DNA from: Gammaproteobacteria bacterium | GTDB taxonomy: Bacteria > Pseudomonadota > Gammaproteobacteria > Steroidobacterales > Steroidobacteraceae | Length of the DNA: 64,000 nt | Direction: 5' to 3' | Assembly (NCBI GenBank): GCA_005878835.1 | Contig: VBMV01000055.1 | Coordinates: forward strand, 62,001-126,000 | Part shown: positions 10,566 through 55,949 of the stretch, piece by piece | Layout: every line of letters begins with the position of its first letter | How positions within the stretch are numbered: the first letter of the stretch is position 1 | Made by a program: the position numbers and the translations under genes | Notes under the pieces: generated by a model | Database searches by the model: none | What the model was told of the DNA's origin: nothing | What the model saw: only the letters and a program-made list of their open reading frames with translations

Positions 10566-12197
10566 ATGTACCTGACGTTCTTCGGCCTCAACGAAAAGCC
10601 CTTCGCGATCACGCCCGATCCGCGCTACCTGTACCTGAGCGAGCGGCACGCCGAAGCCCTGGCGCACCTGTTGTACGGCATCAACGAGGCGGGCGGCTTC
10701 GTGCAACTCACCGGTGAGGTCGGCACCGGCAAGACCACGATCGTGCGCTCGCTGCTGGCGCAGACCCCGAAGAACGCCGAAATCGCGCTCATCCTCAATC
10801 CCAGGATGACGGCGCCGGAGTTCCTGCTGACCATCTGCGAGGAGCTCGGCATCGGCGTGCCGGACGCCGCCTGCGGGAGCCTGAAGGATCTGGTCGACAT
10901 CCTCAGCGACTACCTGCTGCGCGCCCACGCCAGGGGCAAGCGAGTCGTGCTGGTGGTGGACGAGGCGCAGAACCTGTCGCCGGACGTGCTCGAGCAGGTG
11001 CGCCTGCTCACCAACCTCGAAACCAACACGCAGAAGCTCCTGCAGATCATCCTCATCGGCCAGCCCGAGCTGCGCGAGCTGCTGTCGCGCAACGAGCTGC
11101 GCCAGCTGGCGCAGCGCATCACTGGCCGTTATCACCTCAATCCGCTGTCGCACGACGAGACCGTCGCCTACGTGCGCCACCGGCTGCGGGTCGCGGGCGC
11201 GACCAGCGACATCTTCGCACCCGCGGCGCTGAATGAAGCATTCCGGCTGTCGCACGGCGTGCCGCGCGTCATCAACGTCATCTGCGACCGCGCGCTCCTC
11301 GGCGCCTATTCGCTCGACCGGCACCGCGTGACCACGAACCTGGTGCGCGCCGCCGCCGCCGAGGTCTTCGGCCGGCGCTGCACGCCGCACTGGCTCCCCT
11401 GGGCCCTCACGGCCGGCATCGCCGCGCTGCTCGGCATCGCCACCGTGACGCTGTGGAGCCTGCAGCCGTGGAGCACGCGCTCGGGCGCAGCGCGCCTGTC
11501 GCGCGGGGAGGCGGCGTTTACCGGCGCCGCGCCGGCCGCGGTGACGCCTGCGCCCGCACCGCACCTCGCGGAGCTCCTGGCGCAGCACGCCGCCGAGACC
11601 GACACCGACAGCGCGTTCGCGCGGCTCCTCGCACTGTGGGGCGCCAAGTACCAGGCCAACAGCACCGATCCGTGCAGCCAGGCGACGCAACAGGGCCTGG
11701 AGTGCGTGATCGAGCGCGGCTCCTTCGGCCAGCTGCGTCTGTACAACCGCCCGGCGATCCTCATGCTCAGCGACGGCGCCGGCACGAGTCACGAGGTGGT
11801 GCTCACCGCGCTCGACGACGAGCAGGCGCGCATCGAGCTCGGCGGCACACGCAGCGTTGGCCTCGGCGAGCTGTCGCACTTCTGGCTGGGCGATTTCGTC
11901 ATGCTGTGGCGGCCGGCCAGCTCGCCGGTGAAGGCGCTGTCGGCCGGGATGCGCGGCGCCGAGGTGCGCTGGCTGCGCCGCAGCCTGCAGCGCCTGCACG
12001 GCGTGGCCGATGACGCTCCGGTCAGCGACCTGTTCGACGCCGAGCTCGCCGCACTGGTGCGCGATTTTCAGCGCCGGCACCAGCTCGCCGTCGACGGCAT
12101 CGCGGGTGTGCGCACGCAGATTGCCGTCGCCGGCGCCCTCGGCGCTCCCGACACGCCGCTGCTGTCCGCCGTCGATACTGATCATCATGGCGGGTGA
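10566..12197 (+). CDS. gspA: GspA/ExeA-type AAA ATPase with peptidoglycan-binding domain
   Basis: Inner-membrane ATPase (543 aa) that, with GspB, helps insert the type II secretion secretin through peptidoglycan. The N-terminal AAA domain has Walker A GEVGTGKTTIVRS (about residues 50-62) and Walker B VVLVVDEAQNLS. One membrane span lies at about residues 275-298. The periplasmic part has a C39-peptidase-like segment (STDPCSQATQQGLECV, residues about 365-380) that appears to lack full catalytic equipment, then a peptidoglycan-binding domain (GAEVRWLRRSLQRLHG onward) at the C-terminus. gspB follows after 3 bases. No core gsp genes are in the window. Confidence 0.9.
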   Translation: MYLTFFGLNEKPFAITPDPRYLYLSERHAEALAHLLYGINEAGGFVQLTGEVGTGKTTIVRSLLAQTPKNAEIALILNPRMTAPEFLLTICEELGIGVPDAACGSLKDLVDILSDYLLRAHARGKRVVLVVDEAQNLSPDVLEQVRLLTNLETNTQKLLQIILIGQPELRELLSRNELRQLAQRITGRYHLNPLSHDETVAYVRHRLRVAGATSDIFAPAALNEAFRLSHGVPRVINVICDRALLGAYSLDRHRVTTNLVRAAAAEVFGRRCTPHWLPWALTAGIAALLGIATVTLWSLQPWSTRSGAARLSRGEAAFTGAAPAAVTPAPAPHLAELLAQHAAETDTDSAFARLLALWGAKYQANSTDPCSQATQQGLECVIERGSFGQLRLYNRPAILMLSDGAGTSHEVVLTALDDEQARIELGGTRSVGLGELSHFWLGDFVMLWRPASSPVKALSAGMRGAEVRWLRRSLQRLHGVADDAPVSDLFDAELAALVRDFQRRHQLAVDGIAGVRTQIAVAGALGAPDTPLLSAVDTDHHGG

Positions 12198-12200
12198 TCG

Positions 12201-12869
12201 ATGTCCTTCATCCTCGATGCCCTGAAGAAGTCCGAGAGCGATCGCCAGCGCCACAGCGGCCCGGCGCTCTTCGAGGTCAAGGTCGCCCCGCCACGCAGCG
12301 CCTTGCCGCTGTGGGCCGTCGCGGTTGCGGCGTTGCTGGTGGTGAACCTCGCGATCCTCATGTGGATGCTGTGGCCGCATCCGGCGGCGCGCAGCGCCGA
12401 CAGCAGCACGGCCGCTACCCGCCTGGCGGCCCAGGGGCCACAGGCCGCAGCCGCAAGCACGCCCGCCCCGCCGCCGCTGTCGCTGACGGCGCCCGCTGCG
12501 TCCCCAGCGGCGCCCGCGCTGCCGCCAACCCCCGCTGTCGCCAGCGGCGCCGGCGACAATCCCGACGACTACGCGCCGGCGGCCGAACCGGCGGCCGCGC
12601 CCTCGCTCAGCAACCGCGTGCGGCGCGCCACCGCGGACGGCGTGCCCCTGTATCAGGACGCGGCGGCCACTGCCGGCGCGAGCATCCCGCAGCTGCGGCT
12701 GGATCTGCACGTGTTCGCGCAGCGCCCGCAGGATCGCTTCGTCATGATCAACATGCACAAGCTGCGCGAAGGCGACTCGCTTCCCGAGGGCGTGCACGTG
12801 GACAGCATCACACCCGAGGGTGCGGTGCTGTCGTACGGCGCAGCGCGATTCCTGCTGCCGCGGGACTGA
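12201..12869 (+). CDS. gspB: GspB-like type II secretion assembly protein
   Basis: Bitopic inner-membrane protein (222 aa) with the family start MSFILDALKKSESDRQR, a membrane span at about residues 34-56, a long Ala/Pro-rich periplasmic linker to about residue 140, and the C-terminal GspB domain (LRLDLHVFAQRPQDRF, GDSLPEGV, YGAARFLLPRD). It partners the ATPase encoded immediately upstream in secretin assembly. The pair is organised as an operon. The start is the ATG directly after the gspA stop; the ribosome-binding site overlaps the end of gspA. Confidence 0.88.
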   Translation: MSFILDALKKSESDRQRHSGPALFEVKVAPPRSALPLWAVAVAALLVVNLAILMWMLWPHPAARSADSSTAATRLAAQGPQAAAASTPAPPPLSLTAPAASPAAPALPPTPAVASGAGDNPDDYAPAAEPAAAPSLSNRVRRATADGVPLYQDAAATAGASIPQLRLDLHVFAQRPQDRFVMINMHKLREGDSLPEGVHVDSITPEGAVLSYGAARFLLPRD

Positions 12870-12877
12870 GGCGGCGG

Positions 12878-13837
12878 CTACTCGGCGACGTACCAGTGCT
12901 TGTCGACCTGCTCGAGCACGAAGTGATCGAAGGGCAGCCCCTGGCCCGTCAGATCGTAGGTCGCGCGCTGTCCTTCGTACTCATAGCGCGGCTCGAGCCC
13001 CTGCACGATGTGCAGGGTCGCCAGCAGCATCTCGCGCGTGCCCAGGCTGTTCTGACACGCGGCCACCAGCGCCGCCAGCGCCTTCTTGCCGGTCACGCGC
13101 CGGAACTCGGGGCTCATCTGCTTGCCGTAGTAGAGGTCGCACTTGCCCTCCGACAGCAGCTTCTCCGAGGTGGCGAGCAGCTCGATGATCCCGGGTTGCG
13201 CCGGGGCGGTGCTGCGGCCGCCGCCGCGCAGCGCGGCGGGCGTACGCGCCGCGGCGGAGGTGCCGTGCCGGCCGGCGATGAGATCCTCGATCTGCGCCTC
13301 GATCTCCGCCGGCAGCGCCGCTTTCCAGTCCTTGCCGAAGGGCTTGAGGGTGACGACGTTGACCACCTGCACCTTGCCGCGATCGCGGGGCTGGCGGCCG
13401 CGGATCAGCACCTCGACCTTGCCGTCCTTGTCCGCAATGCTCGCGATGCCTTCGCCGCCGTCGTATTCCCGACCGGGCAGATACAGCCGGTCGGCGAGGG
13501 TTGCGTAGAAACCGGTGTCGGTGAGGTGCTCGATCTCGTCGAGCGGTCGGGCCGGACCAAACAGCCGGTTGCGCACCGTGCTGTCGCCGCGCTTCGCCTC
13601 CTCGTGCAGCAGGGTGAGGATCCGCAGCCGCAGGGCCCGCAGGTCATCCGGATGCATCGCGAACGCCACCGCTTCCGGATCGCCGCTGGCGACGGCCTGT
13701 AGAAACTCGAGCGCCGCGTTCTTCTGGCTCATGCTCACCCCGGTGGCGCTGACCGCCGCCCACGCCTGCGGGCAGGCCGGCACGATCGCCAGCCAGGCTG
13801 CCCAGGCCCACGCACACCTCGGCGGAACGTGTCGCAT
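12878..13837 (-). CDS. Exported protein of unknown function
   Basis: Predicted periplasmic protein (319 aa) with a signal peptide ending near PQAWAAVSA (residue about 30). No family was recognised. Two regions can be seen: an N-terminal domain (about 40-185) with a run of acidic and basic residues, and a C-terminal domain (about 215-319) with KCDLYYGKQMSPEFRRV and QGLEPRYEYEGQRATYDL and one cysteine in each half. The pattern recalls DUF-type lipoprotein or NTF2-like folds but is not diagnostic. It converges on gspB and diverges from the TonB-fusion operon; the 150-base divergent gap may hold promoters for both. ATG 13837 is used, with GTG 13840 possible. Confidence 0.72.
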   Translation of the reverse strand: MRHVPPRCAWAWAAWLAIVPACPQAWAAVSATGVSMSQKNAALEFLQAVASGDPEAVAFAMHPDDLRALRLRILTLLHEEAKRGDSTVRNRLFGPARPLDEIEHLTDTGFYATLADRLYLPGREYDGGEGIASIADKDGKVEVLIRGRQPRDRGKVQVVNVVTLKPFGKDWKAALPAEIEAQIEDLIAGRHGTSAAARTPAALRGGGRSTAPAQPGIIELLATSEKLLSEGKCDLYYGKQMSPEFRRVTGKKALAALVAACQNSLGTREMLLATLHIVQGLEPRYEYEGQRATYDLTGQGLPFDHFVLEQVDKHWYVAE

Positions 13838-13988
13838 CACACCTTCAGGATATGTCGCCTGTGACTTCGGTCAACCCCACGTATGACCAGTTTCACAGAA
13901 TCCGGCGGCCGTTAGCGACAGCCCGCGTGCATTACGTCATGGTAATTCCCGCGGCCGGGCGCCGAGCCCAACGGGCGGGTTTCAGATT

Positions 13989-15986
13989 TTGACAGCCGTG
14001 GCTTCCCACACCAAAGCGCAGAGTTCGGCCGCTACGCCACCCCCGGGCGTCGCGCCGCCGCTCACCCTCATCGGCAAGCAACTCCTGGCCTTGACCCAGG
14101 ACCGCAAGCTCATCCAGACCCTCAGGCAGGTCGCCGACCCCGCGCACGAGGTGTACGCCGCCGGCTCCGAGATCGATCTCGCCGGTGCATTGATGGCACA
14201 TCACACCGGGGTCGTGGTCCTGGATGTCGCCGCGCTCGCCACCTCCGCCGGGCAGCTGGCGGCGCGGCTGCACGCGCAGTTCCCGGACATCGTGCTCATC
14301 GTGGCGGGCGGCGCCGAGGACCAGGTGGCTCTCTCGGCCCAGATCACCGACGGCTCGGTGCATCGTTTCCTGCACAAGCCCGTCTCCGAGCAGCGCGTGC
14401 GGCTGTTCGTCGAGGCGGCCTGGCGGCGCCATGCCGAAGGGCCCGGCGGCCCCGCAGGCACGGCCGCGGCGCTCACCGCGCGCGTCCCTCGGGGCGCGAA
14501 ATGGTGGCTGCTCGCCGCGGGCTTGGCGGCGCTGGCCGCACCATTCCTGTGGGTCGGCCTGAACGCTCCCCCGACACCGCTGCGCCCGGCGCCGGCCACC
14601 GCGGGGCGCGCCGCCCCCCCCACGGATGCGGCCCTCGAGGCTCTGCTGGCGCGAGCCGACCGCGCACTGGCCGCCGGTGAGCTGGTGGCGCCGCCCGGGG
14701 CGAGCGCCGCGGACCTGTACCGCGAGGCCCTGCGCGGCAACGCGCGCGATCCGCGCGCCGCGAAGGGCCTCGAGCAGACCATCGACAGACTGGTGTCGGA
14801 CGCGGAAGGCGCGCTGCAGGAGCGACACCTGCAGGATGCGCAGCAGCTCGCGGACTCGGCGCACGCCATCGGCCCCGAGCACCCGCGCGTGGCGTTCCTC
14901 CTGGCGCAGATCGGCGCGCAGCGCGAACGCCTGGTGCTCGACAAGGCGCACCACGCCGCCGCCACCGGCAACGTCGCCGGCGCCCTCGCGGCGCTCGAGG
15001 ACGCCACGCGCGGCGGGCGTCAATCGACCGTCGTCGAGCAGGCGCGCCAGCAGCTCGCGCAGCAGCAGGTCGACGAGCGCGTGGCGGAGGCTGTCAGGCG
15101 CGGCCGCGAGGCGCTGCTGCACGGGCAGCTCATCGACCCGCCCGCAGAGAGCGCGCGCTTCTTCATCGAATCGGCGCGCGCGCTCGCCCCCGGCGATCCG
15201 CGGGTGCAGCAGGCGACGCAGGAATTCATCGCGCGCCTGCAGGCCGAGGCGGGCAAGGCGCTCAGCGCCGGCAACCCGGACCAGGCGGACAGCTGGACGT
15301 CCGCGGCCGCCGCGGCGGGCGCGCAACGGGCCGACGTCGCGGCACTGCGTGCCGAGGCACAACGGCAGCGCGCCGGCGGCAAGGCCGACTCGCTGGCGCG
15401 TCTCGCACTCAGCTTCAACGAGCGCCTCGCCGCAGGAAGGATCACCGACCCCGCCGCCGACAGCGCCAAGTTCTACCTGGCGCAGCTGCTGCAGGCCGAT
15501 CCGGACCACCCGACGACGCAGCTCGCGCGCACCGCATTCGACACCCGCGTGCTCGATGAAGCGCGCGGCGCGCTGCGCGCGCAGGACTATGCGCTCGCGC
15601 GCCGCTGGCTCACCGAAGCCCGTGCCGCGGGCGCCGACGCGGCGAGCATCGCAGGCGTGGAAACCGCCATCGGCGCCGCTCAGGATCAGGCGCAGCGCGC
15701 CAGCTATGTCAGCGCGAGCTCCATGACCCGCACGCACTACGTGGAGCCGCAGTTTCCCCTCGACGCCAGGCGGCGCGGCATCGATGGCTGGGTGGACCTG
15801 CAGTTCGTCGTCAACACCGACGGCTCGGTCGGCGAGCTCACGATCGTCGGCGCCCAACCGGTCGGCATCTTCGAACAGGCGGCGCTCGATGCCGTGCGCC
15901 ACTGGCACTACCAGCCCGTGATGCGCGACGGGCAGGCCGTCAGCCAGCGCGCGCGGGTGCGCCTGCGCTTTGCCATGCAGCGATGA
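13989..15986 (+). CDS. Receiver-like / transmembrane / helical-repeat / TonB C-terminal fusion protein
   Basis: A 665-aa protein with a rare build. Residues about 24-150 resemble a CheY-like receiver: the aspartate (VVVLDV, D79) and the lysine before proline (FLHKP, K130) are present, but the metal-binding acid pair is replaced (T36, Q37). One membrane span follows (about 172-193). Residues 200-565 are Ala/Gln-rich helices, probably TPR-like repeats, in the periplasm. Residues about 575-665 form a TonB-type C-terminal domain (PQFPLDARRRGIDGWVDLQF, VRHWHYQPV). The start is TTG 13989 or GTG 13998; neither has a strong ribosome-binding site. It overlaps the kinase gene by ATGA. A link between cytoplasmic signalling and the envelope is inferred. 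Confidence 0.8.
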   Translation: MTAVASHTKAQSSAATPPPGVAPPLTLIGKQLLALTQDRKLIQTLRQVADPAHEVYAAGSEIDLAGALMAHHTGVVVLDVAALATSAGQLAARLHAQFPDIVLIVAGGAEDQVALSAQITDGSVHRFLHKPVSEQRVRLFVEAAWRRHAEGPGGPAGTAAALTARVPRGAKWWLLAAGLAALAAPFLWVGLNAPPTPLRPAPATAGRAAPPTDAALEALLARADRALAAGELVAPPGASAADLYREALRGNARDPRAAKGLEQTIDRLVSDAEGALQERHLQDAQQLADSAHAIGPEHPRVAFLLAQIGAQRERLVLDKAHHAAATGNVAGALAALEDATRGGRQSTVVEQARQQLAQQQVDERVAEAVRRGREALLHGQLIDPPAESARFFIESARALAPGDPRVQQATQEFIARLQAEAGKALSAGNPDQADSWTSAAAAAGAQRADVAALRAEAQRQRAGGKADSLARLALSFNERLAAGRITDPAADSAKFYLAQLLQADPDHPTTQLARTAFDTRVLDEARGALRAQDYALARRWLTEARAAGADAASIAGVETAIGAAQDQAQRASYVSASSMTRTHYVEPQFPLDARRRGIDGWVDLQFVVNTDGSVGELTIVGAQPVGIFEQAALDAVRHWHYQPVMRDGQAVSQRARVRLRFAMQR

Positions 15987-17521
15987 GCGCGCAAGTCATG
16001 AACACTGCGGCCCGCGTGCTGGTCGTCGACGATGACGTGCGCTACTGCGAGTGGCTGCGCCATCACCTGGACGTGCTCCTGCCCCGTTCGAGCGTCAGCA
16101 TGCTCAATAGCAGCGAATTCGAGCGCTGGTGCACCCAGTTCTCGGGCCGCGACTGCGAGCTGCTGCTGCTCTCGGCTGTGTTCGGCTCGAGCCCCGATGA
16201 CCCGCAGTCCCCGGGGCTGTCGCTGTTGCGCCGCCTGCGCGAGCAGCCGGCGATGCCCGCGGTCATCGCGCTGGCCGAGGACGGTAACGAGCTCACCGCG
16301 GTACGCGCCCTGCACCTCGGTGCGCTCGACTACCTGCCCAAGCGCCTGCTGACGCCCGAGCGTCTGAGTACCGCGGTGCGCGTGGCGCTGCGGCGCATCG
16401 AACGGCGCGTGGCGCGGCGTCTGGCGAGCCTGGCGAACCTGTCGCGCGACCAGGCGCTGCGCGCGGGCGCCGCGCCAGAGGCGGCGCTGGAGTCCGGCGC
16501 GCCGCCGTCCGCGGGCGAGCTTTCCGCGCTGAGCGCCGCCGAGGCCGCCGCATCCGCCGCCGCACCCGCCGCCGCACCCGCCGCACCCGTCGCCGCACCC
16601 GCCGCACCCGCCGCACCCGCCGCACCCGCCGCCGGGGCGGCCCCCGAGTCCGAGCCGCTGCAGGGCGCGGGCGTGGTGGGGCTGCTCGCGGGCGCAAACG
16701 CCGAGGTCATTCCGGGTTACACGCTGCGCCTGAAGATCGGCGAGTCGGCAAAGGCGGTGGTGTACCTCGCCACCAGCGCGCACCGCGGACACAATGTCGC
16801 GCTCAAGGTAAGCAAGACGCTGCGCGACGAAGCGGCCGGCCGCCAGTTCCTCGAGCGCGAGTACACGGCGGTCATGGCGGTCACGAGCCCGCTGGTCGTT
16901 GAGATCTACGACTACGGGGTGCACGCCGGCTTCGAATACCTGGCGATGGAGTACCTGCCGCGCGGGGATCTGAAGGCGCGTATCCAGCGCGGCGTGAGCG
17001 AGCGGGAGGCGCTGCATCTCGTGACACAGATCGCCGCGGCCCTGCAGGTGGTGCACGAGGCGGGCCTGGTGCACCGCGACCTGAAGCCGCCGAACGTGAT
17101 GCTGCGCGAGAACGGCACCGTGGCGCTCATCGACTTTGGCCTGGCGCGCTCCCTGGACGGCAGCACCGTGAGCACGCAGACCGGTGTGCTGCTCGGATCG
17201 CCCTATTACATGAGCCCCGAGCAGGCGCTCGGCGAGCCGCTCGATGCGCGCTCGGATTTCTACAGTCTCGGAGTCATCTGCTACGAGATGCTGACCGGGA
17301 GTAAGCCCTACACCGGCAACACCGCCATGGAAGTGCTGCAACAGCACGTCAGCACACCGCTGCCGCTGCTGCCGGCCGGGCTGGCGCGCTACCAGCCGCT
17401 GCTCACGGGGCTGCTGGCGAAGTCCCGCGCCGAGCGCCCGGGGAGCGCTCAGGAGATCATCGCCGCCGCTACCGCGCTGCGCGCGGGCGCCGCAGGCGAC
17501 GCGCAGTCGAGCGCGGCCTAG
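15983..17521 (+). CDS. Receiver-like domain fused to a Hanks-type Ser/Thr protein kinase
   Basis: A 512-aa cytoplasmic protein. Residues 10-135 are receiver-like with the acid triplet D16-D18 and K120 (DYLPK), but the acceptor aspartate is replaced by serine (LLLLS, S64), so normal phosphotransfer is unlikely. An Ala/Pro linker (about 185-225) leads to a kinase domain (about 245-500) with VALK (K275), HRDLKPPN (D366), DFG (D384) and SPEQ. The glycine loop is degenerate (KIGESAKAVV), yet the catalytic residues are complete, so activity is likely. It overlaps the preceding gene by 4 bp, so both proteins probably act together. No membrane span or PASTA domain is present. Confidence 0.87.
   Translation: MSAQVMNTAARVLVVDDDVRYCEWLRHHLDVLLPRSSVSMLNSSEFERWCTQFSGRDCELLLLSAVFGSSPDDPQSPGLSLLRRLREQPAMPAVIALAEDGNELTAVRALHLGALDYLPKRLLTPERLSTAVRVALRRIERRVARRLASLANLSRDQALRAGAAPEAALESGAPPSAGELSALSAAEAAASAAAPAAAPAAPVAAPAAPAAPAAPAAGAAPESEPLQGAGVVGLLAGANAEVIPGYTLRLKIGESAKAVVYLATSAHRGHNVALKVSKTLRDEAAGRQFLEREYTAVMAVTSPLVVEIYDYGVHAGFEYLAMEYLPRGDLKARIQRGVSEREALHLVTQIAAALQVVHEAGLVHRDLKPPNVMLRENGTVALIDFGLARSLDGSTVSTQTGVLLGSPYYMSPEQALGEPLDARSDFYSLGVICYEMLTGSKPYTGNTAMEVLQQHVSTPLPLLPAGLARYQPLLTGLLAKSRAERPGSAQEIIAAATALRAGAAGDAQSSAA
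16558..16634 (+). repeat. Tandem 9-base repeats coding the Ala/Pro linker of the kinase fusion
   Basis: Repeated CGCACCCGC-type units with single-base changes encode runs of AAP. The array connects the receiver-like and kinase domains and could change length by slippage without breaking the frame. Confidence 0.8.
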
Positions 17522-47967: not shown

Positions 47968-49201
47968 CCGGCGCCAGCTGCGCGCCGCGCTCGGCATCCG
48001 CGAGCCCGGCGCAGGTCACGATCTGCTGCGTGTTGATGAACGGACCCTTGAGCTCGCGCGGCACCGCCGCGCGCCGGCTCTTGCGCCACAGGTCGTAGAT
48101 CGTCAGAGCGCCGGTCAGTGTGCCGAGGGTCGCGAAGTAGGCCCGCGGCCCGAAGGCGTGTATCAGGCTCCCCGCGAGCACCGGGCCCGCGGCGGCCGCC
48201 ATGCCGTTCATCATGAGGAGCGCGCTGCTCGCGTCCACCATCTGCGCCGGCTCGAGCTTGTCGTTGACGTGCGAGACCGAGAGCGAATAGAGCGTCAGCG
48301 CCGAGCCGCTGAAGAGTGCGGTGAGCGCGAGGAAGAGCCCCCGCGGCAAGGGGCCGAGGAAGACGATGCTCGCCGCCACCAGCGTCGCGAGTGTGCAGGC
48401 GCTCGCGATCACGGTGCGCCGATCGACGCGATCGGAGAGCCGTCCGACCGGGTACTGGGTGAGGACCGCGGCGAGAATGCTCACCGCCATGAAGGCCGCC
48501 ACCCCGCGCGGGCCGTTGCCGGAGAGGCGCGCATACACCGGGCCCATCGAGAAGATGATGGAGGAGATCAGTCCCGAGGCCGCGACCGCCACCACCCCGA
48601 GCGGGGAGTTGCGGTAGAGATCCCGGTAGCGCACCCGGTGCGGCACGGCGGGCTCGGGCGTGTGCTGCGCGGAGGCGACGATCGGCACCATCGCGAGCGA
48701 GATCAGCGCCGAGATCAGCATGAAGGGGGCAGGCGACTCGGGGCTCGTGAGCACCAGCAGGAACTGCGCCGACCCGAGCCCGACGTACAGCACCAGCATG
48801 TAGATGGCGAGCAGGCGCCCGCGATTGGTGCGGCTCGCGCGGTGATTGAGCCAGCTCTCGGCCACCACATAGATCCCGGCGAAGCACAACCCGGACACGA
48901 GGCGCATCAGCGCCCAGGGGAGCGGATGCACCCAGGAGGCATGCACCAGGCTCGCGACGGAGGCGAGCGCCGCGAGAGCCGCGAAGGCGCGCACGTGCCC
49001 GACCCGCTGCAGCGCCCGCGGCGCAATCTGCGTGCCGAGGAGATAGCCCACGTAGTAGCAGGACATCACGAGCCCGGTCACGGGCGTCGGGAATCCCTCG
49101 AGCGTGGCGCGCAGCCCGAGGATCGTGGCCTGAAGTCCCGCCCCGAGCATGAGGATGGCCATGCCGAGGAGCAGCGGCCAGGTTGCGAGGAGCGGATTCA
49201 C
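47933..49201 (-). CDS. MFS transporter (YcaD-like)
   Basis: A 422-aa membrane protein with about twelve helices. LGLRATLEGFPTPVTGLVMSCYYVGYLLG near residues 30-58 (position only) and the charged motif GRLSDRVDRRTV (about residue 255, an MFS motif A variant) match the YcaD-like family. The substrate is unknown. The start is ATG 49201; rsmG ends... upstream on the same strand, with its stop at 49215, so the two are 13 bases apart and likely co-transcribed. Confidence 0.84.
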   Translation of the reverse strand: MNPLLATWPLLLGMAILMLGAGLQATILGLRATLEGFPTPVTGLVMSCYYVGYLLGTQIAPRALQRVGHVRAFAALAALASVASLVHASWVHPLPWALMRLVSGLCFAGIYVVAESWLNHRASRTNRGRLLAIYMLVLYVGLGSAQFLLVLTSPESPAPFMLISALISLAMVPIVASAQHTPEPAVPHRVRYRDLYRNSPLGVVAVAASGLISSIIFSMGPVYARLSGNGPRGVAAFMAVSILAAVLTQYPVGRLSDRVDRRTVIASACTLATLVAASIVFLGPLPRGLFLALTALFSGSALTLYSLSVSHVNDKLEPAQMVDASSALLMMNGMAAAAGPVLAGSLIHAFGPRAYFATLGTLTGALTIYDLWRKSRRAAVPRELKGPFINTQQIVTCAGLADAERGAQLAPVKAAEAAPSSP

Positions 49202-49214
49202 GGGCGGCGGCCTT

Positions 49215-49898
49215 TCAGTCCACCGCGAGCGCCAGCACGAGCACGCAGCGCGCCTCCCCGAGACGGGGCACGGTGAGCTCGCGCGAGCCGACGAGCCGCC
49301 AGGACGAGGGCAGCGCCTCGAGCTCCTTTTCGGGCCAGCGGCCCTTCATGGCGAGAAGGCGGCTGTGCGCGGCGACGAGCCCCCTCGCCTGCGCGAGCAG
49401 CTTCGGCAGCGGTGCGAACGCGCGCGCGACGACCGTGTCGAAGGCTTCGGCAGGGCGCAGCGTCTCGACTCGCGCCTGCAGCGCCGTCACGTTCGCGAGC
49501 CCGAGCGTCTCCGCCGCGTGCGACGCGAAGCGGATCTTCTTGGCGGTCGAGTCGATGAGAGTGAAATGCCGCGCGGGATTTGCGACCGCCAGCGGCAGCC
49601 CCGGAAATCCCGCGCCGGTGCCGACGTCCGCGATGCGCGTGCCCTCGAGGTCGGGGTGGATGGCGAGGCTGTCGAGAAGGTGATGAGTCACCATGGCGCC
49701 GAGCGTGCGGACGCCCGTGAGGTTGTAGCGGCGGTTCCAGCGGGCGAGCTCCTCGAGGAGCGCGAGCAGCCGACCCGCGTCGGCATCGCTCAGGCGAACA
49801 CCGAGGCTGGCCGCATCCTCGACCAGGTGCTCGGCGGCACTCAGCTCCACGGCACTCAACCCAAGGCTCCTCGCACGCTCATCCGCGCGATTGATCAT
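49215..49898 (-). CDS. rsmG: 16S rRNA (guanine-N7) methyltransferase RsmG
   Basis: Methylates the N7 of G527 in 16S rRNA; its loss gives low-level streptomycin resistance in other bacteria. The 227-aa product has NRRYNLTGVR (about residues 55-64), SAM motif VGTGAGFPGLPLA (about 89-101) and ARVETLRP. ATG 49898 is the first suitable start and family-like; the long open frame beyond it is antisense to the response regulator. The start is only 9 bases from the divergent regulator's GTG, so both promoters must lie inside the opposite gene or the transcripts are nearly leaderless. Confidence 0.94.
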   Translation of the reverse strand: MINRADERARSLGLSAVELSAAEHLVEDAASLGVRLSDADAGRLLALLEELARWNRRYNLTGVRTLGAMVTHHLLDSLAIHPDLEGTRIADVGTGAGFPGLPLAVANPARHFTLIDSTAKKIRFASHAAETLGLANVTALQARVETLRPAEAFDTVVARAFAPLPKLLAQARGLVAAHSRLLAMKGRWPEKELEALPSSWRLVGSRELTVPRLGEARCVLVLALAVD

Positions 49899-49907
49899 AC
49901 TTCGCAG

Positions 49908-50570
49908 GTGCGACTGCTGCTGGTGGAAGACGACGCCATGATCGGGGAGGCGATCCGCGCGGGACTGAAGCGCGAGGGCTTCGCCGTGGACTGGGTGCAC
50001 GACGCCGAGGCCGCCGCCCAGGTGCTGCGCACCGAGCCCTTCGAGCTGCTGCTGCTCGATCTGGGTCTGCCCGGGAGCGACGGGCTCGAGCTCCTGAAGG
50101 TCCTGCGCGAGCGCGGCCTCACCGTGCCGGTGCTCATCATCACGGCGCGCGACGCGGTGTCCGATCGCGTGGCCGGCCTGGATGCGGGGGCGGACGACTA
50201 CCTCACCAAGCCCTTCGATCTGGACGAGCTCGCGGCGCGCATCCGGGCGCTGCTGCGCCGCAAGGCCGGCCGCTCGGCGCCGAGCATCGAGTACCTGGGC
50301 GTGGTGCTGGACCCGGCGGCGCATCGCGTCACGCGCGACGGCACCGAGATCGCACTCTCGCCGCGGGAATTCGCGCTGCTGCAACTGCTGCTCGAGCGCC
50401 CGGGAGTGATCCTGTCGCGCGCCCAGATCGAGGAGCGCCTGTACGGCTGGGGCGAGGAAGTGGAGAGCAACGCCGTGGAGGTTCACATTCACGGGCTGCG
50501 CCGCAAGCTCGGGGCGCAGTTCATTCTCACCGTACGCGGCGTTGGCTATCGCGTGAGGCCCGCGCCATGA
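49908..50570 (+). CDS. OmpR/PhoB-family response regulator (QseB-like)
   Basis: A 220-aa regulator. The receiver has LLVEDD (acid pair), the acceptor aspartate in LLLLDLGLPGSDG (about residue 51) and K in LTKPF (about 102). The winged-helix DNA-binding domain covers about 125-220 (LSPREFALLQLLLERPG, ESNAVEVHIHGLRRKL). The start is GTG 49908, since no ATG fits and the receiver begins immediately. Its stop overlaps the kinase start by ATGA. The length and motifs match QseB/PmrA-type regulators. Confidence 0.92.
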   Translation: MRLLLVEDDAMIGEAIRAGLKREGFAVDWVHDAEAAAQVLRTEPFELLLLDLGLPGSDGLELLKVLRERGLTVPVLIITARDAVSDRVAGLDAGADDYLTKPFDLDELAARIRALLRRKAGRSAPSIEYLGVVLDPAAHRVTRDGTEIALSPREFALLQLLLERPGVILSRAQIEERLYGWGEEVESNAVEVHIHGLRRKLGAQFILTVRGVGYRVRPAP

Positions 50571-53847: not shown

Positions 53848-53873
53848 GCCTCTAAGCTAGCCTACAGGTTACG

Positions 53874-54875
53874 ATGTGTACATTCGCGACACGCCATCCG
53901 CGACGCAGCGCACAGGTCGACGTTCCCTTGAAGCCGCGACTGTATCGACACCCGCACGGCGTCTGCGCCGTCGATGCCGAGTACCTCTATCCCGGGCACG
54001 CCGCCGCGCACATCATCGAGGATGGCGGTCGCGCGGCCTTCGTCGATGTGGGCACCAACGCTTCCGTCCCCTACCTGCTGGCGGCGCTCGCCGAGCTTGG
54101 CATCGCGCGCGCGGCGGTGGACTACGTGCTGCTGACGCACGTGCACCTGGACCACGCCGGCGGGGCGGGGCGGCTGATGCAGGAGCTCCCCAACGCCGTG
54201 GCGGTGCTGCATCCGCGCGGCGCGCCGCACATGATCGACCCCAGCCGCCTGATCGAGGGCTCGCGCGCGGTCTACGGCGAGCGCCTCGAGCAGCTGTACG
54301 GGCAGCTGCTGCCGATCCCGGCCGCGCGCGTGCGCGTGGTCGAGGATGGCGAGCGGGTGCGCCTCGGCGGCCGCACGCTCGAGCTCATCCACGTCCCGGG
54401 GCACGCGCTGCACCACTACGCCGTCGTGGACCCGGCGCACGCCAGCATCTTCGCCGGCGACACCTTCGGCATCTCCTACCGCTCGCTCGACAGCGCGCAG
54501 GGCGCCTTCATCACCCCGACCACGCCCCCTTCGCAGTTCGATCCGGAGCAGCTCATCGCCTCCATCGAGCGGATGCTGGCGTACCGCCCCGAGTCCGTAT
54601 ACCTCATGCACTTCAGCCGCGTGACCGGCGTGCCGCGTCTGGGCGAGCTGCTCAAGCCGCAGGTGCGTGAGCTGGCCCGCATCGCGCGCGCTCACGCGCA
54701 GGACCCCGACCCCGCCGCCGGCATCCGCGCCGCGATGCGCGCTCTGTGGCTCGATCTGGCGCACGGTCACGGCTGCGCGCTCAGCGATGGTGAGATCGAG
54801 AAGGTCCTGGAGGGCGACCTCGAGCTCAACACCCAGGGTCTCATGGTGTGGCTCAAGCGCCTCGGCCGGCACTGA
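53874..54875 (+). CDS. MBL-fold metallo-hydrolase
   Basis: Metallo-beta-lactamase-fold protein (333 aa) with the metal site LTHVHLDHAGG (HXHXDH, residues about 87-97), a further His in HVPGHALHHYAV (about 175-186), Asp in FAGDTFG, and His in YLMHFSRV (about 244). Homologues include glyoxalase II-like and quorum-quenching hydrolases, so the substrate is open. ATG 53874 has AGG six bases upstream; a TTG at 53929 would remove a non-conserved 18-residue lead. Confidence 0.83.
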   Translation: MCTFATRHPRRSAQVDVPLKPRLYRHPHGVCAVDAEYLYPGHAAAHIIEDGGRAAFVDVGTNASVPYLLAALAELGIARAAVDYVLLTHVHLDHAGGAGRLMQELPNAVAVLHPRGAPHMIDPSRLIEGSRAVYGERLEQLYGQLLPIPAARVRVVEDGERVRLGGRTLELIHVPGHALHHYAVVDPAHASIFAGDTFGISYRSLDSAQGAFITPTTPPSQFDPEQLIASIERMLAYRPESVYLMHFSRVTGVPRLGELLKPQVRELARIARAHAQDPDPAAGIRAAMRALWLDLAHGHGCALSDGEIEKVLEGDLELNTQGLMVWLKRLGRH

Positions 54876-54956
54876 CGCGCGCGCTTGCCGCCGTCGGGGC
54901 ACGGCGTTAGGGTCTGCACGGGCTTCGCAGGTCAAGGACGCGGTGGCGGTGCGAGC

Positions 54957-55949
54957 ATGACTTCCAGCTTCAAGGCGTTCCGCATTCATTCCGAAGGGGG
55001 CCGGATTGCCGCCCGCTTCGAGCCCGTCACGCTCGATGAGCTCGCCCCCGGGGAGGTCGTGATCCGGGTGAGCCACTCCGACATCAACTACAAGGACGCG
55101 CTCGCCGCGACCGGGGCCGGCAAGATCCTGCGCCGCTACCCGCTGGTGGGCGGCATCGACCTGGCGGGTGTCGTCGAAACCTCGAGCGATGCGCGCTACC
55201 GGCCCGGCGCTGCGGTGCTCGTGACCGGCTGCGGGCTGTCCGAGACCCACGATGGCGGCTACGCGCAGTTCGCGCGCGTGCCGGGAGACTGGGTGATTCC
55301 GATGCCGGAGGGACTCGATGCCTTCACTGCCATGGCGCTCGGCACTGCCGGGTTCACCGCGGCACTCGCCATCCACCGCCTGGAGCACAACGGCCAGTCC
55401 CCGGCTGGCGGGCCGATCGCGGTCACCGGCGCCTCCGGAGGCGTGGGTAGCATCGCGGTCGATATGCTCGCCGCCCGCGGCTACCGGGTCGTGGCCGTGA
55501 GCGGCAAGGCGGCCGCGGCAGAGTACCTGAAGGAGCTCGGCGCGGCGCAGGTGCTCGCCCGCCAGGACCTCGAGCTCGGCTCCCGGCCGCTGGAGAATGC
55601 GCGCTTCGCCGGCGCCATCGACACTCTGGGGGGCGAAGTGCTCGCCTGGCTCACGCGCAGCGTGGACTTCTGGGGCAACATCGCCAGCATCGGCATGGCG
55701 GGGAGCGCCGAGCTCAAGACCACCGTGATGCCCTTCATCCTGCGCGGCGTGAACCTCCTCGGCATCAACTCCTCGGCGACGCGGCGCGAGTGGCGGCTGG
55801 CGGTCTGGAAGCGCATCGCCACCGACCTGCGACCGCGGCACCTCGAGCGCATCGTCACGCGCACCATCGCCTTCGATGAGCTGCCGCGCGCGTTTGCCGC
55901 CTACCTCGAAGGCGCGGTCACCGGCCGCACGGTGGTGCGCATCGCCTGA
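54957..55949 (+). CDS. acuI: AcuI/YhdH-family NADPH-dependent acryloyl-CoA reductase-like enzyme
   Basis: Medium-chain reductase (330 aa) without structural zinc ligands. It has HSDINYKDALAATGAGKILRRYP near residue 37 (position only), and the NADPH loop TGASGGVGSIAVDMLA (about residues 154-169). The YhdH/AcuI group reduces acryloyl-CoA to propionyl-CoA. The genes that follow (prpB, prpC, prpD) consume propionyl-CoA, which strengthens the assignment. The ATG at 54957 is the family start. A 97-base gap with an inverted repeat separates it from prpB. Confidence 0.82.
   Translation: MTSSFKAFRIHSEGGRIAARFEPVTLDELAPGEVVIRVSHSDINYKDALAATGAGKILRRYPLVGGIDLAGVVETSSDARYRPGAAVLVTGCGLSETHDGGYAQFARVPGDWVIPMPEGLDAFTAMALGTAGFTAALAIHRLEHNGQSPAGGPIAVTGASGGVGSIAVDMLAARGYRVVAVSGKAAAAEYLKELGAAQVLARQDLELGSRPLENARFAGAIDTLGGEVLAWLTRSVDFWGNIASIGMAGSAELKTTVMPFILRGVNLLGINSSATRREWRLAVWKRIATDLRPRHLERIVTRTIAFDELPRAFAAYLEGAVTGRTVVRIA

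Follow-up and report, generated by a model that had tools for sequence, protein, structure and literature searches.

A degenerate receiver joined through a predicted membrane span to a TPR-like arm and a TonB C-terminal domain in a soil bacterium

Described carriers of the same parts

TonB, which acts with ExbB and ExbD, has a C-terminal domain (TonB_C) of the same family as the one that ends the 665-aa protein considered here, and its membrane span bears an SHLS motif, according to the accessible part of one article (PMC12204202). In GltG and GltJ of the Myxococcus gliding machinery, as here, one span is followed by a periplasmic helical region and a TonB_C domain (available sections of PMC5349195), and GltJ is described as an effector of the cytoplasmic protein MglA (available sections of PMC12288465). 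In BlaR1 the C-terminal end is the sensor, as stated in the portion at hand of PMC7593790, and in two BlaR1/MecR1-type M56 proteins seen in our survey it is TonB_C that occupies this outer-sensor place. Pseudo-receivers are defined as receiver homologues without one or more of the active-site residues (Bourret et al., 2025, PMC12632262), and the accessible text of that article calls their switching in bacteria an open matter.

The window, by which we mean the whole 64,000-nucleotide stretch analysed, encodes at 13989..15986 (+) a membrane protein of a soil bacterium in which a receiver-like domain (aa 28-151) is followed by a span (aa 173-191), three 90-residue TPR-like repeats and a TonB_C domain (aa 586-662). 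With transmembrane Ser/Thr kinases it shares, in predicted topology, the order of a span and then the 90-residue repeat, which 16 of the 18 kinase-like loci from beyond the host's order also show; within the order, two proteins (L050 and L051) unite kinase, repeat and TonB_C in a single chain whose hydrophobic stretch falls slightly short of the span threshold. It differs from these kinases in that a pseudo-receiver fills its cytoplasmic slot and the next gene encodes the kinase as a protein of its own; Pfam found no kinase domain in the 665-aa protein itself. Compared with the pseudo-receivers covered in the accessible text of PMC12632262, this one is linked to a membrane span and to a TonB_C arm in the periplasm, and a term search of that article returned no occurrence of TonB, transmembrane or periplasm. 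Set against TonB, the protein has no SHLS motif, an internal span, a large N-terminal domain and no ExbD match on its contig. We know of no receiver domain in GltG or GltJ. The model for the AgmX/PglI tail (NF033768) did not match the 665-aa protein at 0.001; of eight other proteins scanned it picked up five, each below the cut-off. The M56-TonB_C proteins differ in having several predicted spans, a protease domain, no receiver label and no repeat. The sequence-only reading that preceded this analysis knew of no described system with this order of domains, and in the papers that we found, mostly open-access, neither the receiver-TonB_C order nor the combination of BlaR1 with TonB is described. 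The parts, then, are known, and we file the protein as a pseudo-receiver-bearing relative of the repeat-bearing receptor kinases, with a domain order of which we found no account.

The 665-residue protein and its receiver-like domain

The frame at 13989..15986 is a real gene. Its TTG start is putative, the frame staying open upstream for 699 codons in all, and its GC3 is 0.89 (gene caller). It is more than a chance frame because full-length orthologues occur in two metagenome-assembled Gammaproteobacteria (83 and 89% best-segment identity), with other near-full-length matches beyond them (e.g. 56% in G033 and 29% in G058). Against both orthologues the third codon position varies most (117 of 238 base differences with one, 56 of 121 with the other), and more of the changed codons are non-synonymous than synonymous (113:84 and 68:46), which suggests loose constraint on the protein. 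The coordinates and frame, together with D79, K130 and T36/Q37, are as first read from the DNA, and the order of receiver-like domain, span, helical region and TonB_C was borne out by Pfam, phmmer, profiles, hydropathy and AlphaFold2.

The single span, placed earlier at about 172-193, was found by hydropathy at aa 173-191 (14505..14561, +). Three K/R and no D/E lie in the 15 residues before it, and one K/R and no D/E in the 15 after, so that hydropathy and the charge rule together predict the receiver inside and the TonB_C domain outside; the reversed topology, which had been named as a refuting result, was not seen under the charge rule. No SHLS motif was found in this span or in any of the 56 TonB_C proteins scanned (one span per protein, with 53 of the 56 spans over threshold).

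What had been described as an Ala/Gln-rich helical region resolves, by profile self-comparison, into a TPR-like repeat of 90 residues that occurs three times, at aa 217-306 (14637..14906, +), aa 366-455 (15084..15353, +) and aa 470-559 (15396..15665, +), each with HMM and AlphaFold2 evidence. The AlphaFold2 model of the outer part, built with three sequences, shows an array of 15 helices together with a linker of low confidence and an alpha/beta domain (pLDDT 73.7, pTM 0.38). In the PDB, the repeat profile matched mostly designed TPR proteins, and in none of 22 matches did the stretch pass alone. One to four copies are present in all 45 receiver-TonB_C proteins by an iterated HMM; because the HMMs for receiver and repeat were built by iteration on members of the protein family, E-values internal to the family are not independent. 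The TonB_C domain itself, read beforehand at about 575-665, is matched by PF03544 over aa 586-662 (15744..15974, +) at 1.5e-19, scoring 70.7 bits where the cut-off is 24.6. The tip is not essential, as L067 and L068, two relatives that carry receiver and repeats, lack the TonB_C domain.

The N-terminal domain (aa 28-151; 14070..14441, +) lies below the Pfam cut-off for Response_reg (PF00072 over aa 50-138, E 0.03, 14.9 bits against 30.2), as do most of its counterparts at a looser setting, only three of 18 orthologous domains reaching PF00072 at E <=0.01. Its likeness to receivers is nonetheless true homology: phmmer reached PDB entry 3hv2 at 2.2e-6, covering aa 32-150, and a profile built from the 18 orthologous domains matched both 3kcn and 3hv2 (1.2e-6), with the profile's Asp and Lys falling on those of 3kcn. 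With hhalign, the pseudo-receiver was matched to the canonical first receivers of related tandem-receiver proteins with 95% probability (E 1.9e-8) and to CheY rows with 21% (E 0.001). Chance likeness is ruled out by these profile matches and by the alignment to canonical first receivers; an HMM trained on pseudo- and canonical receivers also recovers both kinds, a result that is not independent. The AlphaFold2 model of aa 25-200, made with three close sequences only, had a pLDDT of 44.6 and was not used.

In the active site, T36 and Q37 replace the acid pair, D79 and K130 are kept, and Gly stands at the T/S position. A check on the conservation of the T36/Q37 change had been proposed, and it found the loss to be a family trait: among 41 single-receiver TonB_C proteins none has both acids and four have one, which rules out a random loss in this copy alone. 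The beta-3 Asp is retained in 40 of the 41, the switch position is Gly in 27 and T or S in six, and the Lys position is K in 22 and R in two. The 18 close orthologues all have D79, and all have K or R at the position of K130. The domain fits the definition of a pseudo-receiver, a receiver homologue missing at least one of five active-site residues, and we read it as a conserved pseudo-receiver rather than the product of decay. The family-wide loss of the acid pair makes ordinary Mg-dependent phosphorylation of the Asp unlikely, and some phosphorylation may still be conceivable, since the beta-3 Asp and the Lys persist. In the 18 close orthologues the mean majority is 0.84 over aa 118-150, against 0.62 over aa 29-117 (gaps counted as misses). 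This conserved stretch, assigned to alpha4-beta5-alpha5 by analogy, could serve the formation of homodimers, a possibility that counts against the receptor reading preferred below.

A tree of receivers (84 rows, 125 columns; short receivers and receivers of unclassified genes omitted) groups the receivers of TonB_C proteins, whether single or second in the chain, with the second receivers of a split form described below; on the other side stand CheY, first receivers (including those of two-receiver TonB_C fusions) and the receiver of the Ser/Thr kinase. The two sides are divided by a weak branch (69/79), and several long branches were flagged.

Gene order and distribution among relatives

In the window, the stop codon of 13989..15986 overlaps the ATG of a receiver-Ser/Thr kinase gene (15983..17521, +) in the sequence ATGA. 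By eye, the kinase keeps its catalytic motifs intact (VALK, HRDLKPPN, DFG), and its receiver has the acid pair but no beta-3 Asp; among 17 related receiver-kinases, both acids are present in 11, one acid in six and the beta-3 Asp in none, again by eye. On the other side lie two recurrent neighbours, an ExeA/GspA-like ATPase with a peptidoglycan-binding domain (10566..12197, +) and a GspB-like (T2SSB) protein (12201..12869, +), and then the divergent gene of a 320-aa protein (12878..13840, -).

At least seven families of the host's order have one-chain receiver-TonB_C forms. The neighbour survey covered 45 such loci, omitting any TonB_C gene that encodes a kinase domain or no more than 300 aa, and eight rows without a receiver label stand outside the 45. 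A labelled kinase lies within three genes on the same strand at 27 of the 45 loci and at none of the other 18, one of which (L041) is near a contig end; labels were assigned by phmmer, by which too-distant kinases are missed, and Hpt and HATPase_c were confirmed by Pfam in L039, L114 and L130. The 27 comprise 17 loci with a receiver-Ser/Thr kinase, 13 of them with the 4-base overlap, and ten with a CheA-like kinase alone. Two of the 17 are cut by contig ends, with the receiver part alone visible, and two also have a CheA-like kinase. These counts are not independent, as all 17 belong to one taxonomic family, and of the ten other CheA-like loci nine come from one genus.

The CheA-like arrangements take several forms. 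G302 has the genes for a CheA-like kinase, CheY, CheX and the pseudo-receiver-TonB_C protein in a row, and G445 has a similar run in which the third gene encodes 149 aa and the last has no TonB_C label. The host has a second copy of the family on another contig (C86; L039, 5715-13054), in which the pseudo-receiver-TonB_C gene is followed by a CheA-like kinase and CheY and preceded by a divergent PrkA-type gene, a layout with counterparts in other genomes of the genus.

The domains also occur apart or in other company. In a split form, found at six loci, a histidine kinase, tandem receivers and a TM-repeat-TonB_C protein are encoded by three genes, and a receiver protein and histidine kinase stand directly upstream of all six TonB_C genes that have no receiver, kinase or M56 domain; a further split locus, L055, was left out of this count, its third gene having no TonB_C label. 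In the one split-form kinase scanned (L036), HATPase_c was over its cut-off and HisKA and DAHL were below theirs. The tandem receivers, canonical and then degenerate, resemble the order of receiver and pseudo-receiver in PleD (as given in the accessible text of PMC12632262). Four two-receiver TonB_C fusions of 947-972 aa were seen in family f7. Three proteins join a Ser/Thr kinase and TonB_C in one chain, two of them with the 90-residue repeat, and TonB_C ends the two M56 (BlaR1-type) proteins, neither with the repeat, one of which (L047, 7680-9963, -) adjoins a BlaI-type repressor.

Of 60 relatives, 56 match the 665-aa protein at E 1e-3, many through parts other than the receiver, and at 1e-20 at least 107 of 246 genomes of the host's order have a match. 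Searched with the whole protein at 1e-15, at least 12 of 370 genomes of the class match, three of them in the host's order; among the matches listed, the nine outside it cover essentially the TonB_C end alone. The repeat profile by itself finds 74 of 276 class genomes at 1e-6. We viewed the best match per genome in 30 of these 74, giving 27 loci outside the host's order, which phmmer labels as 18 kinase-like, one TIR-FGE, one other FGE, one AAA and six other or unassigned; Pfam was run on ten of the 27, including three of the 18 kinases, all three of which were confirmed. The TIR-FGE protein (L141, 625-2754, -) combines, within a single chain, a TIR domain, a span, the 90-residue repeat and an FGE-sulfatase domain.

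Among 36 genomes of the host's genus, the kinase is found in 34 (at 1e-60) and the 665-aa protein in nine (at 1e-40), all of which have the kinase. We inspected 12 of the 25 kinase-only genomes, which are drafts in which single absences can be gaps. The kinase stands in the same place with its receiver retained in all 12, more diverged in L172-L176, and GspB lies directly before it in ten; the exceptions are L166, with a 74-codon TonB_C remnant between GspB and the kinase, and L169, in which GspB was not called. An obligate pairing of the two proteins is weakened by these numbers, the kinase keeping its receiver where its neighbour is absent. The survey points to the kinase as the stable part and the 665-aa protein as an addition, one that has probably been lost at least once.

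Direction of signalling and other readings

The explanation that we prefer, tentatively and at a little under an even chance, is that the 665-aa protein is a membrane receptor or adaptor that works from the outside in and acts on a kinase in trans. It would be a single-span inner-membrane protein, with the topology predicted from hydropathy and the charge rule, whose TPR-like arm of three 90-residue repeats would hold the TonB_C tip toward the peptidoglycan and the outer membrane. The tip might bind a TonB-box-like segment by strand addition, or some other envelope partner, and its occupancy or position would be relayed through the span to the pseudo-receiver, which would serve inside the cell as a docking surface with no phosphorylation switch. 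The pseudo-receiver would then alter a partner kinase, which in the window may be the receiver-Ser/Thr kinase of the overlapping gene and elsewhere a CheA-like kinase found with CheY.

The sequence-only reading had a signal passing between the cytoplasm and a periplasmic TonB-like arm and left its direction open. The crossing is supported, and is the natural reading because of the predicted topology and the many copies beside signalling genes, with the receiver-like domain now read as a pseudo-receiver. As to direction, we lean outside-in because kinase, TIR and AAA proteins bear the same outer repeat, and because TonB_C takes the place of the sensor in BlaR1-type proteins and ends kinase proteins; such domain swaps appear to favour this direction. 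Counted against the receptor reading as a whole are the retention of the kinase without the 665-aa protein, the 18 of 45 loci with no labelled kinase, and the tipless L067 and L068.

Bacterial pseudo-receivers gain from this family a membrane anchor, an outer domain of a testable binding type and, often, a testable partner next door. If the outside-in direction is true, there would be a path from the state of the outer membrane or periplasm to Ser/Thr kinases, a route unlike the TonB-receptor and anti-sigma cell-surface signalling described in the accessible part of PMC7593790, and some proteins labelled by their TonB domain alone would probably have to be reread.

The opposite direction is credible, if unlikely. 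Here a kinase or a CheY-like protein would bind the pseudo-receiver and set the reach of the TonB_C arm, which would engage or release an outer-membrane partner, the 39 TonB-receptor barrel matches in the genome being possible targets. Receivers usually take in signals, and the CheA-CheY-CheX-TonB_C run of G302 shows no other output gene; G445 has a similar run, its last gene lacking a TonB_C label. A possible parallel is GltJ, which like GltG also has one span, a helical region and TonB_C (available sections of PMC5349195) and is listed as an MglA effector (available sections of PMC12288465). Against such an actuator, the outer repeat is shared with Ser/Thr kinase, TIR and AAA proteins, in which it is more naturally an input, and the kinase is retained where the 665-aa protein is absent.

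Rather improbable, in our estimate, is a split receptor kinase, in which a sensor and a Ser/Thr kinase would be rejoined in trans by two degenerate, complementary receivers while the tip read the state of an outer-membrane transporter. In the window the complementarity holds, the sensor receiver keeping the Asp without the acid pair and the kinase receiver the acid pair without the Asp. Strict complementarity fails beyond part of the family, both acids being present in 11 of 17 kinase receivers, and we have lowered the probability of this arrangement because of it.

We give little weight to an envelope-assembly scaffold tied to GspA/GspB, whose arm would place a secretin or a peptidoglycan-bound complex while the receivers acted as a structural clamp. 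It would account for the synteny of GspA/GspB, the 665-aa gene and the receiver kinase in many genomes of the taxonomic family, but GspB and the kinase stand together without the 665-aa gene in ten of 12 kinase-only loci, and many other copies of the family lack a GspA/GspB label in their vicinity. Least probable of all is an energy transducer of the TonB type with an additional N-terminal domain, which would draw its power from ExbB/ExbD and serve import or tasks at the outer membrane. The strong TonB_C match (1.5e-19) and the genome's six ExbD and 39 TonB-receptor barrel matches speak for it, but we disfavour a motor role because SHLS is missing (0 of 56 TonB_C proteins), the internal span has about 170 residues ahead of it, the ExbD and barrel matches are all on other contigs, with no ExbD match on the window's own (C44), and a separate, more TonB-like TonB_C frame of 211 codons lies within about 1 kb of two ExbD matches on C43.

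For the outside-in receptor or adaptor that we prefer, the divergent gene at 12878..13840 (-) suggests a possible candidate for a periplasmic partner. Its 320-aa product seems, by eye, to begin with a signal peptide and matches nothing in Pfam or NCBIfam, and it is labelled beside eight of the 17 receiver-kinase loci and none of the 12 kinase-only loci.

Two other frames of the window may be recorded. A response regulator frame at 49149-50570 (+) has a stretch of some 250 residues ahead of its receiver that no Pfam family matches, and its true start is possibly further in. At 53862-55841 (-), a 659-aa frame with no Pfam match at 1e-5 has a GC3 of 0.73, lower than that of its neighbours.
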